Shown: piece by piece, positions 37,909-46,813 of the stretch | How the letters are laid out: every line of letters starts with the position of its first letter | Position numbering within the stretch: the first letter of the stretch is position 1 | Origin: Segetibacter sp. 3557_3 | GTDB taxonomy: Bacteria; Bacteroidota; Bacteroidia; Chitinophagales; Chitinophagaceae | Direction of reading: 5' to 3' | Assembly: GCF_004354985.1 (NCBI RefSeq) | Contig: NZ_SMSK01000001.1 | Span: forward strand, 744,001-808,000 | Length of the DNA: 64,000 bases | Translations under genes and position numbers: made by a program | Notes under the pieces: model-generated | The model's input: only the letters and a program-made list of their open reading frames with translations | What the model was told of the DNA's origin: nothing | The model's database searches: none

Positions 37909-39699
37909 ATGAAATTAAAAGCAGCACTAATTGGGTTTGGAATCATCATTTGCCAACAGGGATTCACACAAATTAAACATGTTCCGCATTCATCTGCCCC
38001 GGCAGTTCGCCACGATCGTTCCGGCCCCCTCATGGGCAACGCTATCCAAAACATAAGCCGACACGATACACCTTCAGCCAATCAACCAGGTAGCAATCCC
38101 AACTACACTGTTGAGCCAAACAGCCCCGAGCGTCGTGGATATGGAGATTACATCGCCGAACCCTCAGTAGAGCAAACCCAGTTTGGAACGAAGAACGCAC
38201 CTCGCCTGGTTGCGAGTTTCGACGGGCTTGGTGTAGGCTTCGAGGGCCCGCAGGGAACCGCAACCGTTCGCAATCCATCTGATAATTCGCTTGCGGTAGG
38301 ACTAAACCATATCGTTCAAACGGTAAACTCCCGCATGGCCATCTTCACCAAACGGGGGCGGCAATTCGATAGTACCGGCAAGGTGTTGTATGGCCCCGTA
38401 GAAACCAGGAACGTATTTCGGGGTTTTGGGGGTCCTTGTGAAAAAATCAACAATGGCGATGCTGTTGTACGCTATGATCAGCTTGCCGACCGGTGGCTGA
38501 TCGTTATGCCAACATTCCGGCGGCTGCCTTCGCGCGAAACGGAGCTAATCAACGGAGTGCCCGGAGTATTGGGCAGGGCAGGCAAAGCAGAACCCTTGTT
38601 CATTCCACCTTACACAAAACCAGATACAAGTCAGCCCATACGGCAACCCAGGCCACCAAAGGAGGAAGGTGCATACTGTATGTGCTATGCGATTTCTACC
38701 GGTCCTGACCCGTTTGGCCCCTATTACCGCTACGAGTTTACCCGCAAATTGTTCCCGGATTATCCCCGCCCTGCTGTTTGGCCCGACGGCTATTATACTT
38801 CAACAAGCACCGGCGATGATGTAATTGAGAAACACGCCTATGTAGTTGACCGAACAAAGATGTTGAAAGGCGAAGATGCAACCGAACAAGCGTTTATCAT
38901 CAAAGATGTAAACTTCCTGGTAAACGCCGATCTCGATGGCAAGCAGTTACCACCTGCGGGTGCACCAAACATCATGCTTGCAGCCGGGGGATCGCAGTTG
39001 AAAAACATTTTGGAGGATGATGGCATCTATGCCTGGAAATTTCATGTAGACTGGAAAGACCCGGCGAAAACAAAGCTCGAAGGACCCGTAAAGATTACCG
39101 TTGCACCTTATCGCTACATGGGTGGTGGCCAGTTAACAAAAGCAGTTCCGCAACCTGGAACGGAACAAAGGCTCGACGCCCAGGGTGACAAGCTGATGGC
39201 CAGGTTGGTTTATCGCCGTATCGGCAAGCGGGAATCGATGGTGGCGGTACACTCCGTGAACACCAGTGCGGGTGCCGGTGGTGTTCGCTGGTATGAGTTT
39301 GTGCTCGACAACAATCGCGAAGTAAAACTTTTCCAGCAAGGCACGTATGCACCAACTGCCCAGTTCAGGTGGATGGCCAGCCCGGCCATTGATCGCTGGG
39401 GAAACATCGGAATTGGCTACTCTTTTGGTGGCGCAGACGAATATCCAGGCCAGCGTTTTGCCGGAAGACATTCCGGCGACGCTGTTGGGATAATGACCTT
39501 AAATGAAGCCATCCTGGTGAGCGGCGAAGCCGCGCAAACCTATACGTTGCGCTGGCAGGACTATACGCAAACCGCTGTTGACCCCAGTGATGACGAAACC
39601 ATATGGTATGTAGGCGATTACCTGAAAAAAGATGCAAAAAGTTATTCCACTAAAATCGGTGCATTTCGCTTGAACCAGGAAAAGAAGAAATCACGGTAA
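37909..39699 (+). CDS. Large secreted protein of unknown function
   Basis: The 596-residue protein has a signal peptide (MKLKAALIGFGIIICQQGFTQ). The mature part contains FDGLGVGFEGPQGTATVRNP, DNSLAVGLNHIVQTVNSRMA and a middle section with GGPCEKINNGDAVVRYDQLA and GAYCMCYAISTGPDPFGPYY. It ends with MASPAIDRWGNIGIGYSFGG. The repeated 'aD...W..g...S' strands and absence of long helices suggest a beta-propeller. I do not recognise a named family. The C terminus is basic (NQEKKKSR) without a type IX sorting signal. A gluconokinase-type gene follows. Confidence 0.75.
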   Translation: MKLKAALIGFGIIICQQGFTQIKHVPHSSAPAVRHDRSGPLMGNAIQNISRHDTPSANQPGSNPNYTVEPNSPERRGYGDYIAEPSVEQTQFGTKNAPRLVASFDGLGVGFEGPQGTATVRNPSDNSLAVGLNHIVQTVNSRMAIFTKRGRQFDSTGKVLYGPVETRNVFRGFGGPCEKINNGDAVVRYDQLADRWLIVMPTFRRLPSRETELINGVPGVLGRAGKAEPLFIPPYTKPDTSQPIRQPRPPKEEGAYCMCYAISTGPDPFGPYYRYEFTRKLFPDYPRPAVWPDGYYTSTSTGDDVIEKHAYVVDRTKMLKGEDATEQAFIIKDVNFLVNADLDGKQLPPAGAPNIMLAAGGSQLKNILEDDGIYAWKFHVDWKDPAKTKLEGPVKITVAPYRYMGGGQLTKAVPQPGTEQRLDAQGDKLMARLVYRRIGKRESMVAVHSVNTSAGAGGVRWYEFVLDNNREVKLFQQGTYAPTAQFRWMASPAIDRWGNIGIGYSFGGADEYPGQRFAGRHSGDAVGIMTLNEAILVSGEAAQTYTLRWQDYTQTAVDPSDDETIWYVGDYLKKDAKSYSTKIGAFRLNQEKKKSR

Positions 39700-41659: not shown

Positions 41660-41667
41660 TATATTTG
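41660..41667 (+). promoter_or_regulatory. -7 element before the gene at 41683
   Basis: TATATTTG matches TAnnTTTG and ends 15 bases before the ATG at 41683. Confidence 0.55.
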
Positions 41668-41682
41668 CCACAACTACAATTT

Positions 41683-41940
41683 ATGTCTTCAACCATTCCT
41701 TTTGAATTAAACGGTTCCGAATATATTGCAGAAGCAGTGTCGGCCAAAGACCCTGAAACAAACCAGGTGCAATACTTTGTAAAGATCAATGGCGATCCAG
41801 CCTGCTTTATCAACTTTAGCTATTCCGGCGCGTCAACCCTGGCTGAAGACTCGTCTTCACCTGAATTAACTCCTGAATTTAAGGAAGCTATGAAAAAGGC
41901 TTTGCTCGACTACCTTGCGGGCAGTATGGCGAACGATTGA
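41683..41940 (+). CDS. Small hypothetical protein (85 residues)
   Basis: The product starts MSSTIPFELNGSEYIAEAVS, then QVQYFVKINGDPACFINFSY, and ends with a helix (EFKEAMKKALLDYLAGSMAND). It is predicted soluble. The family is not recognised. I chose ATG 41683; the open frame starts 6 codons earlier, within the promoter. It converges with the exported Ntn-like gene at 41945. Confidence 0.68.
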   Translation: MSSTIPFELNGSEYIAEAVSAKDPETNQVQYFVKINGDPACFINFSYSGASTLAEDSSSPELTPEFKEAMKKALLDYLAGSMAND

Positions 41941-41944
41941 TGAA

Positions 41945-42724
41945 CTAGGGTAAAACAACCGGGGTGCCTTTCTTTCTACGGATCCATTTTACACCCGACG
42001 GTGTTATGCGTAATATATCAATAGGCCCTCCAACCAGCTTTGGTGTACTTGCGGCCTGTACACTTACCAGCTTTTCTACAAACTTCTCCGGTGTCATTGT
42101 CACCCGCTGAACCGACTGCATGTACTTATTGATAGCTGTTTTCTGCCCAAGGTAATAAACAGCATCTTTCAGGTTGCCCTTGCCATAAGATATCTCTTCG
42201 GTAGTAACGTTTATTGTGGCACCATCCGTTACCTTAAAGCCAAGCAGATGCGCATACGGTGTTTTGTTCTTTATACCAATCAAACAAACAGACGTGAAAT
42301 AATCCGATGCAACCAGGTTGTTCCGGTAAAGGTTATTGTTAGCCGATTTAATGTAGTTTAGATAAGGCAACAAGGCCCTCTCAACGCTCCTTTTAATTCT
42401 GTTGGTTACCTCCGGCCAGGTTGTAAAGTTTTGAAGCTCCGCGTCTATCAGCCGGGCAACGTTAAAATTTTGGGAGTTATTGGAGGTGACCCCTGCCATT
42501 GAGAAGTAAACGTTGCTGCGCTGATAGATTTTTGACACCATTGCCACACTCTCCCTATTACCCGATACCGTAGTAAAAACCCCCTTGCTGTCGGCAGCCA
42601 TCATCACAAATTCCGGCGTTATATATATTACAATTGTCGTTGACCAAAGGCTGGTCGACAATGCTACCGCTATAGTGAGAAGGGTAAATCGGCGTAAGAT
42701 ATAATTGAACCTGGTGCGGAGCAT
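41945..42724 (-). CDS. Exported protein with proteasome-type Ntn-hydrolase signature
   Basis: The 259-residue protein starts with a signal peptide (basic MLRTRFNYILRR, hydrophobic FTLLTIAVALSTSLWS). Directly after it comes TTIVIYITPEFVMMAADSKG, which lines up with the N terminus of proteasome beta subunits and HslV (TTxV...V.aaDs). If cleavage occurs before Thr29, the mature N terminus would be Thr1 with Asp at 17 (Asp45), a Lys at 37 (Lys65, in MVSKIY, near proteasome Lys33) and FSMAGVTSN at the position of the conserved Gly47 region. A later strand, SVCLIGIKN, is like the central strand of that fold. The C-terminal 60 residues end with a basic tail (WIRRKKGTP). Proteasome-type proteins are cytoplasmic; an exported form would be unusual. 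Function is unknown. Confidence 0.6.
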   Translation of the reverse strand: MLRTRFNYILRRFTLLTIAVALSTSLWSTTIVIYITPEFVMMAADSKGVFTTVSGNRESVAMVSKIYQRSNVYFSMAGVTSNNSQNFNVARLIDAELQNFTTWPEVTNRIKRSVERALLPYLNYIKSANNNLYRNNLVASDYFTSVCLIGIKNKTPYAHLLGFKVTDGATINVTTEEISYGKGNLKDAVYYLGQKTAINKYMQSVQRVTMTPEKFVEKLVSVQAASTPKLVGGPIDILRITPSGVKWIRRKKGTPVVLP

Positions 42725-42917: not shown

Positions 42918-43163
42918 ATGATTCTATACTATGACTTTGAGGGGCGTCGAATGCATGCAGAAGTTTATTGGCCATCAAACGCCGACACTATCCAGGTTCA
43001 ACTTGTTGATAAGCGGCTGAAACAATTTCCAACCGACCTCTTGTATGATAAGCGCGGCAGTAAAATTTCGTTTCACCTCGAAAACCCACGGGATAAACGC
43101 TTAACGGAGCTGCAGACGGTCATTGGGAAAAGACTCCAGGAAATTGCATCGCAAGAGGCGTAA
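42918..43163 (+). CDS. Small hypothetical protein (81 residues)
   Basis: The product MILYYDFEGRRMHAEVYWPS... is predicted soluble: two or three N-terminal strands followed by a helix (RLTELQTVIGKRLQEIASQE). The family is not recognised. It is separated from the Ntn-like gene by a 193-base divergent region. Confidence 0.62.
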   Translation: MILYYDFEGRRMHAEVYWPSNADTIQVQLVDKRLKQFPTDLLYDKRGSKISFHLENPRDKRLTELQTVIGKRLQEIASQEA

Positions 43164-45414: not shown

Positions 45415-46728
45415 TTACATTCCGAATGGATAGGTGTCCGGGATTTCAAGGTTGTGTGGTTCAAGATGCAATGGGTGTAAGGCCCGGGTTTGATCAAGGT
45501 GTATAAAAGCATCATACCTGTTGGTCATCCTGCTCGGAACGTAATTGCCATAAGATTCTAACGCCGGGTTATACACAACACCGACAGCCCGGTGACCAAT
45601 ATGATGGTCAAAAACGTCGGTTGGCAAGTTGTGCATGAGTAATAATTTGTCGCCCGCCCCCGCCTTGTGCAGAAGGCGCTCCCACGACCGGGCAGGCGCA
45701 GGTGGCAACTCCATCTTCTGCATAGGGGCTCCCCATCGTTTACCCGCGATTACTGATCCCTTATATGAGCCAAAACCCACCAGGAAAGTGTCGTTACCGT
45801 ATTTCTGCCGGGAAAGCTCCCCGATATTGATCATTCCATCCTGCTGCATATCGGTTGCGCTTGCATCGCCTATGTGGGTGTTGTGAGCCCAAACAATTGT
45901 TTTTGCACCAGGTTCATTGAATTCAAGCAAGCGGTCGAGCGTTTCCTGCATGTGCCCGTCGCGAACATTCCAGGAGGCACCATCTCCCTTAACCATAGCA
46001 CGATAATACTTTTCTGCATTAACCGCGATTAAGGCATTTTGTTCCGTAGAAAAAACACTTTCCTCGCCACTATCGTAAGTAGGCAGTTTCTCCTTCAATT
46101 CCTTGAGCAAGGCTACCACCTCATTTTCGCAGAGTTCCGGAACAAGGCGGCTCGCATAAGCATAAGACACCCCGTCTTCGCTGTAGGGTTCAAAACACCT
46201 GAAGGTCTCGCTCACTTTCTCCAATGCAATTGGGTCAACTTCTTGCAGGTACTGCCTGATGGCACCCAACGACTCCCACAAACTATAAACGTCAATCCCG
46301 TAAAACCCGATTTTCTTCGTTGCAGCCGCATTATACTTTTTCAGCCATTCTGCAAGCCCGGCAATCTCCCAGTTTGCCCACATCCAGGTAGGCCAGCGGT
46401 CAAAAGTCTTTACTACCTCTTGTGCAGTTGAAGCATGCGACCGACCCTTTACATATTCGTTGATCTTGTAGCAATCGGGCCAGTCGCCTTCAACCGCAAT
46501 AAAGCTGAAGCCTTTTTCTGCAATGAGCCGCTGGCTGATAAAACTGCGCCAGGTGTAATACTCATGCGTGCCGTGAGAGGCTTCTCCCAACATCACAATC
46601 CTCTTTTCTCCAATCGCATCAAAAAGGGGCTGAAGGTCGCCCAGGCTTTCCAGTTTTACCTGGTGTTCTATGATCTCGGAAATGGCTGCACTTTCATCCA
46701 GACCTTTCGACGTAGTTCGGGTTTTCAT
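45415..46728 (-). CDS. Erythromycin-esterase-like protein
   Basis: The 437-residue protein has the family motifs GEASHGTHEY (His52, His55), FSFIAVEGDWPDCYK (Glu) and VWAHNTHIGD (His). EreA/EreC relatives hydrolyse macrolide lactones, but most chromosomal members are uncharacterised, so drug resistance should not be assumed. ATG 46728 (MKTRTTSKG) is preferred over a frame reaching 46791. Confidence 0.9.
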   Translation of the reverse strand: MKTRTTSKGLDESAAISEIIEHQVKLESLGDLQPLFDAIGEKRIVMLGEASHGTHEYYTWRSFISQRLIAEKGFSFIAVEGDWPDCYKINEYVKGRSHASTAQEVVKTFDRWPTWMWANWEIAGLAEWLKKYNAAATKKIGFYGIDVYSLWESLGAIRQYLQEVDPIALEKVSETFRCFEPYSEDGVSYAYASRLVPELCENEVVALLKELKEKLPTYDSGEESVFSTEQNALIAVNAEKYYRAMVKGDGASWNVRDGHMQETLDRLLEFNEPGAKTIVWAHNTHIGDASATDMQQDGMINIGELSRQKYGNDTFLVGFGSYKGSVIAGKRWGAPMQKMELPPAPARSWERLLHKAGAGDKLLLMHNLPTDVFDHHIGHRAVGVVYNPALESYGNYVPSRMTNRYDAFIHLDQTRALHPLHLEPHNLEIPDTYPFGM

Positions 46729-46813
46729 ATGTGTCTTTTTATAATACCAGCAAAAATTGCGCAACCATATTGATGAGCGATCAGTGGACATAGGGTGATA
46801 TCAGTTTTGCACT

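Follow-up and report, generated by a model that had tools for sequence, protein, structure and literature searches.

Proteasome-type enzymes are generally taken as cytoplasmic, and the proteasome and HslV are fed by ATP-driven unfoldases. Anbu, whose members start with Met-Thr or Met-Ser, is likewise taken as cytoplasmic. Some Ntn amidases are exported with a signal peptide that adjoins the nucleophile. Twenty-two new subfamilies of proteasome-like proteins were described by Fuchs, Alva and Lupas in 2021 (PMC8665760), several of which occur in Bacteroidetes according to Table 1 of that paper. The article confines propeptides to the proteasome beta subunit and HslV, and its main text makes no mention of a signal peptide, secretion, periplasm, extracellular location or export. 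In the literature searched, with most subscription papers lying outside it, no description of an exported or secreted proteasome relative was found. Two articles (PMC11924767 and PMC12765819) cite a 2023 paper by Coluccia and Besaury with a 'secreted proteasome repertoire' of Acidobacteria in its title; the phrase is taken to mean secreted proteases.

A candidate exception is encoded in a stretch of 64,000 nucleotides from Segetibacter sp. 3557_3 (the window). The gene lies at 41945..42724 on the minus strand, as do all its features given below, and by the ORF list has an ATG start and encodes 259 amino acids, a putative exported Ntn hydrolase of the proteasome type referred to here as the query. 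From sequence and hydropathy, residues 1-28 (MLRTRFNYILRRFTLLTIAVALSTSLWS; 42641..42724) are predicted to form a Sec signal peptide with a basic start (Arg at positions 3, 5, 11 and 12), a hydrophobic segment at residues 13-22 and LWS before residue 29. The best 10-residue Kyte-Doolittle mean of the core is 2.51, and the signal-peptide-like start of the original prediction is borne out. Such a segment is not special on its own, as 15 of the 43 ORFs in the window reach at least 2.05, roughly where the weakest of the exported family members described below lies. From residue 29 the query reads T29 T30 I V I Y I T P E F V M M A A D45 S K, and the predicted mature enzyme comprises residues 29-259 (41948..42640). 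The residue at -3 of the 28/29 site is Leu, and Ser25|Leu26 offers an alternative cut. Because the leader contains no cysteine and the fold is not followed by a long C-terminal extension, the best guess is a soluble periplasmic protein.

The query gene is solitary. It converges with the ORF at 41665-41940, 4 bases away, and diverges from the nearest upstream ORF at 42918-43163. The nine window neighbours scanned include an FGGY kinase, small ORFs, a DUF1543 protein and a ferritin-like (Dps-like) protein. When the ORFs from 15 loci were set against the 33-52 kb part of the window, no partner gene or operon emerged: the only neighbour of the query common to another locus is the FGGY kinase, found at L089 only. 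Some loci of the L004 group, four related members, do have neighbours in common with each other. An Rfam scan of the window from 36 to 48 kb returned no match. Elsewhere in the window, 45415-46791 encodes an Erythromycin-esterase-family protein (PF05139, E 1.3e-118), a family membership that alone is no proof of resistance, and 37909-39699 a 596-residue protein that has no Pfam match and whose start resembles a signal peptide (hydropathy 2.81).

Alone, the query has no match in Pfam, NCBIfam or PDB sequences. A profile built from 14 relatives, leaving out the query and L044, nevertheless scores it at 120.7 bits (E 2.3e-35), the best of 5000 shuffles reaching 10.9 bits. The same alignment sets Thr29 on the conserved Thr and runs ungapped up to the Asp, which supports the original choice of Thr29 as residue 1; the cleavage site that would expose it is a prediction from the leader. 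Searched against the PDB, the 16-row profile A5, with the query included, retrieves 182 sequences at E<=10, of which the best 60 are all proteasome subunits; its best E is 2e-5, compared with 0.0079 for an earlier 7-row profile. Three of these PDB alignments bring the GT, the AD/VD motif, the K-I and the Gly region into register with the proteasome. At E<=0.01 the members match one Pfam family only, PF00227 (Proteasome), which is found for 4 of the 16. The query does not reach its cut-off, and kinship is proposed at superfamily level only.

The original prediction spoke of a proteasome/HslV-type Ntn hydrolase. Kinship with the proteasome type is supported by profiles, predicted fold and residues; HslV as the nearest relative fares poorly. 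Run over comparison proteins, the family profile finds the unexported proteasome-like L043 (E 8.5e-8) and L040 (E 1.1e-6), and its best HslV-like match is at E 0.012. The Anbu-like protein of the query's own genome is absent among the matches listed, down to about E 1. Profile-profile comparison (hhalign) with 30 HslV-like proteins yields a score of 21.06, and 3 of 200 column-shuffled decoys score at least as high, a weak case for HslV. Non-proteasome Ntn families do not appear among the matches listed, namely the best 60 of 182 PDB sequences and the best 50 of 214 fold matches. NCBIfam provides no sensible name for any of the 16 members scanned, its matches to pyruvate kinase (n=2) and a bunyavirus model (n=1) being taken as chance. 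With Pfam matching only 4 of 16 as well, many family members are probably annotated as hypothetical proteins.

The predicted structure points the same way. An AlphaFold2 model of residues 29-259, computed from a three-row alignment with no templates, has a pLDDT of 78.1 and a pTM of 0.79. Two of the five models are good (pLDDT 78.1 and 68.3; the rest 48.5, 45.4 and 45.0), and a two-row alignment gave a pLDDT of 36.8. Foldseek with this last model has its best match, a proteasome chain, at a non-significant E of 0.4. With the pLDDT-78.1 model it finds 214 PDB chains at E<=0.001 (best E 1.2e-7), and the best 50 consist of 46 proteasome and 4 Anbu chains with moderate TM-scores of 0.42-0.62. Against viral structures the same model gives 4 unnamed rows at E<=0.001. 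The modelled query adopts the alpha-beta-beta-alpha sandwich of the proteasome, in agreement with the T1-type fold that structure prediction was proposed to reveal.

By sequence comparison the query is no lone oddity and belongs to a set of exported relatives. The tallies of genomes with matches are sparse and profile-dependent, and the query's own genome is counted in all except the last one given here. The query protein finds matches in 9 of 99 genomes, where L006 and L007 are not kin by eye. The 7-row profile matches in 15 of 394 genomes of the family, once as a fragment, and in 5 of 395 of the phylum, where besides the query one match is real (L027) and the other three were judged to be HtpG from one sequence read. 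A 10-row profile matches in 7 of 10 genomes of the genus, 8 of 298 of the order and 2 of 295 of the class (L045); among the eight from the order, L040, L042 and L043 are unexported homologues and L041 is not kin. The 16-row profile matches in 13 of 167 family genomes, including one unexported protein, one fragment and one not read; it also matches in 7 of 98 genomes from an order that belongs to a different class, where the unexported L111 and a broken copy are among the seven. A scan of genome contigs with the query and L002 found only L044, which is 46% identical to the query and the same locus as L002.

From these matches a set of 26 members, including the query, was assembled. Removed beforehand were L006 and L007 (other proteins by eye), L026/L099 (a 119-residue fragment that lacks residue 1), L028, which by eye resembles HtpG, L029 and L030, assigned likewise on their length and the stretch matched, L041 (by eye no relative) and L104, L110 and L112 (broken or short). 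L001, L002, L012-L018, L031-L039, L092-L096 and L105 were dropped as duplicates of the same genes. No hydrophobic leader was seen in L040, L042, L043/L103 and L111, which were set aside, with L040, L043 and L111 kept as unexported comparison rows. In the tree, 10 of the 28 inner branches have good support, and the deep branching order is left without resolution.

Residue 1 was defined solely as the residue 16 positions before the conserved Asp, and from it onward the letters of all 26 members are identical to their loci. This position, the predicted nucleophile, is Thr29 in the query (codon 42638..42640) and is Thr in 21 of 26 members and Ser in 5. Asp45 (42590..42592), the equivalent of proteasome Asp17, is Asp in 26/26 and in register with the proteasome AD(S/C)R or VDSR. 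Lys65 in VSKIY (42530..42532), corresponding to proteasome Lys33, is also Lys in all 26 and in register with the proteasome K-I. Gly78 in MAG (42491..42493), the putative oxyanion residue equivalent to Gly47, is Gly in 23 members. Counted from Thr29 these are residues 17, 37 and 50, as the original prediction had it for the Asp and Lys, and with the Gly near 47 as it also noted. A conserved C-terminal motif, GGP at residues 232-234 (42023..42031), has its first Gly in 23 of 26 members and aligns weakly with the proteasome S-G-G in second-stretch alignments. Equivalents of proteasome Ser129, Asp166 and Ser169 are not evident. The 26 members are not an unbiased sample of conservation, because the search profiles contain the catalytic columns themselves. 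When the mature query is aligned by BLASTP with L044, L003, L019, L108, L008 and L022, both partners start at residue 1 in 6/6 cases; these sequences had been cut there, so an earlier start was impossible. In the L004 group dN/dS is low, at 0.05 and 0.09 in the 2 of 6 pairs with finite dS (dS > 2), the other 4 pairs being saturated.

A hydrophobic leader (10-residue Kyte-Doolittle mean of about 2.05 or more) is found in 24 of the 26 members, most of which retain additional residues ahead of residue 1; in L003 and L019 (L079:6100-6789 and L081:6055-6768) only six residues come before Thr1, the last of them Ala, and there is no hydrophobic segment. For L106 and L109 there is no ATG in the listed leader stretch, and their true starts are unsure. 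Behind a leader, the position just ahead of residue 1 is Gly in 17 members, a layout that suits self-cleavage, Gln in L020 and L023 and Glu in L107. The homologues do not all place extra residues between the cleavage site and the nucleophile, the finding that was to count against the original prediction: in 4 of 26, with sites judged by eye, residue 1 lies directly at a plausible signal-peptidase site, namely the query (LWS|T), L044 (LPA|S), L022 (CFS|T) and L108 (ATA|T). The idea that signal peptidase acts instead of autocatalysis would therefore suit these four, the query among them, and not the 17 members that keep the Gly. In the leader of L098 (residues 1-34) a Cys follows Ser-Ala-Gly by eye, which may make this member a lipoprotein instead of a soluble protein.

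A second feature of the leaders concerns Gln. The Q-rule of Bacteroidetes, as set out in PMC5837995, places Gln at +1 of most signal peptidase I (SPI) substrates, with a mean frequency given as 71%. Gln after the hydrophobic segment, preceded by a small residue or Cys, was counted by eye in 17 of the 24 members with a leader, likewise 71%, which speaks for real export; 18 had been flagged, and L108 was removed since its Gln precedes the segment. The four direct-contact members have no Gln after the segment, as expected because the nucleophile itself would have to be the new N-terminus. L108, with SIPATA|TIVVLV, is a cleaner instance of the query's layout. Its partner in the tree is L111 (support 98/95; 28.7% identity, E 7e-25), both coming from another class of Bacteroidota, and L111 has no hydrophobic leader and begins Met-Ser1. 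The contrast suggests that in the L108 lineage the start Met was replaced by a signal peptide, separately from the lineage of the query.

The best explanation, which we consider fairly probable, is that the query is a proteasome-beta-like Ntn hydrolase exported by Sec, with Thr29 freed by signal peptidase I at Ser28|Thr29. Export would most likely lead to the periplasm, and the peptidase would most likely cut between Ser28 and Thr29. Removal of the signal peptide would free both the amine and the hydroxyl of the catalytic Thr, and a self-cleavage step would be unneeded. The protein would fold outside the cytoplasm, where Thr1 is predicted to attack amide bonds with the aid of Asp17 and Lys37, the backbone of Gly50 forming the oxyanion hole. 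The periplasm has neither ATP nor an unfoldase, so the likely substrates would be unfolded proteins, peptides or small amides. The chemistry proposed is the established chemistry of the proteasome family, and its location outside the cytoplasm is the part that we infer.

It is unlikely, if still worth weighing, that the same exported enzyme is cut upstream by signal peptidase I, for example after Ser25, and that Thr29 is then freed by self-cleavage. In favour of such a route are the Gly behind a leader in 17 of 26 members and the Gln at that position in L020 and L023; the query has no Gln of the kind that the Q-rule (PMC5837995) leads one to expect at +1 of most SPI substrates. Against this, the residue before Thr29 is Ser and not Gly, and the sites of L044, the most plausible by eye, and of L108, a good one, sit at residue 1.

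Export itself could be doubted on the grounds that a hydrophobic leader is absent in L003 and L019 and that hydrophobic starts are as frequent in the window as noted above; the query would then retain an uncleaved membrane anchor, or have been given a wrong start codon, and act at the inner face of the membrane or in the cytoplasm. There is only a slim chance of this, given the segment in 24 of 26 members and the Gln that stands just after it, by eye, in 17 of them as the Q-rule has it; an uncleaved anchor would, moreover, block residue 1. Equally slight is the prospect that the exported protein has the proteasome fold and no activity, with a binding or structural role like that of proteasome alpha subunits. 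The lack of Gly50 in 3 members, the Ser for Thr in 5 and the lack of evident counterparts of proteasome Ser129, Asp166 and Ser169 would fit such a protein, but Thr/Ser1, Asp17 and Lys37 are retained in 26/26. Least credible is a periplasmic protein ligase or transamidase in which a Thr1 acyl-enzyme joins peptides as in connectase, a monomeric proteasome homologue with ligase activity according to PMC8665760: an enzyme without an ATPase partner would suit a specific monomer, yet the two-helix insertion that marks connectase, between strands 3 and 4, is absent from the model, and no partner gene is common to the family loci.

For the exported Bacteroidota set as a whole a broader reading can be offered, to which we give slightly less than an even chance: signal peptidase I would have replaced Met-aminopeptidase or self-cleavage, export would be the step that activates the Thr enzyme, which would thereby stay inactive throughout its time in the cytoplasm, and the arrangement would probably have more than one origin. 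Repeated origin is read from the query pair and from L108 with its unexported kin L111, the place of L022 in the tree being without resolution. As tentative, in the same reading, is the proposal that the larger group keeps Gly|Thr self-cleavage after export and that all are periplasmic proteasome-type enzymes working without ATP. If true, exported relatives would mean that this fold can function in an ATP-free compartment too. The set would supply small single-gene enzymes in which to probe a proteasome-type active site acting alone. Its two leader layouts, a signal peptide running onto residue 1 and a signal peptide followed by a Gly|Thr propeptide, would constitute a natural test of a change in Ntn activation. 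The original prediction had called a secreted member unusual and knew of no such system; the literature searched agrees on the second point, while the query turns out to be one of a set of exported relatives.

Some of the relatives may be linked to phages. At L083 (also L090 and L091) two different exported proteasome-like genes, L083:1917-2717 and L083:6030-6782, with G|S and Q|T before and at residue 1, lie about 3 kb apart on a region that is the IMG/VR viral contig UViG_2695420933_000002. Ten proteins of the region were scanned, and one is tail-fibre-J-like and one protease-like (PHROGs). L020 and L083b match one and the same viral contig record. Such phage-carried genes may be cargo. Among annotated phages there is no match for L020, L083b or the query, neither the query nor the L004 group matches a viral contig, and no plasmid record matches the query.

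Among the known systems near the query is the 20S proteasome beta subunit (MEROPS T1, PF00227), with which it has in common the Thr1/Asp17/Lys33/Gly47 arrangement, the predicted fold and the best PDB matches; it differs in its predicted export and in lying below Pfam detection. The only gene above the PF00227 cut-off in its own genome is Anbu-like, so no alpha partner was detected. That separate leaderless gene, L010:1282-2001 on contig C31, stands beside an ORF that is transglutaminase-like by eye, and by our reading the match and the neighbour together make it Anbu-like. With Anbu the query has a bacterial proteasome-like fold in common, as the 4 chains among the best 50 Foldseek matches indicate, whereas it carries a 28-residue leader and is without the Anbu-typical neighbourhood. 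HslV resembles it as a single-gene beta-type subunit with a TTI start, but the profile similarity is weak, the length comparison gives the query as the 'shorter' and HslU is not among the nine window neighbours scanned. The difference from connectase lies in the model, which has no helix before residue 61 and lacks the two-helix insertion. Exported Ntn amidases (penicillin acylases, AHL acylases and Gram-negative penicillin V acylases) act outside the cytoplasm, as the query is predicted to do, and belong to other Ntn families, none of which is among the best 60 PDB sequence or best 50 fold matches. The 22 subfamilies of PMC8665760 are distant proteasome homologues with active-site residues kept, much as the query is; the comparison is with their description only, and the query family may overlap with one of them. 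By predicted fold and by residues, the query family is proteasome-like at the superfamily level, with no assignment to a named subfamily.
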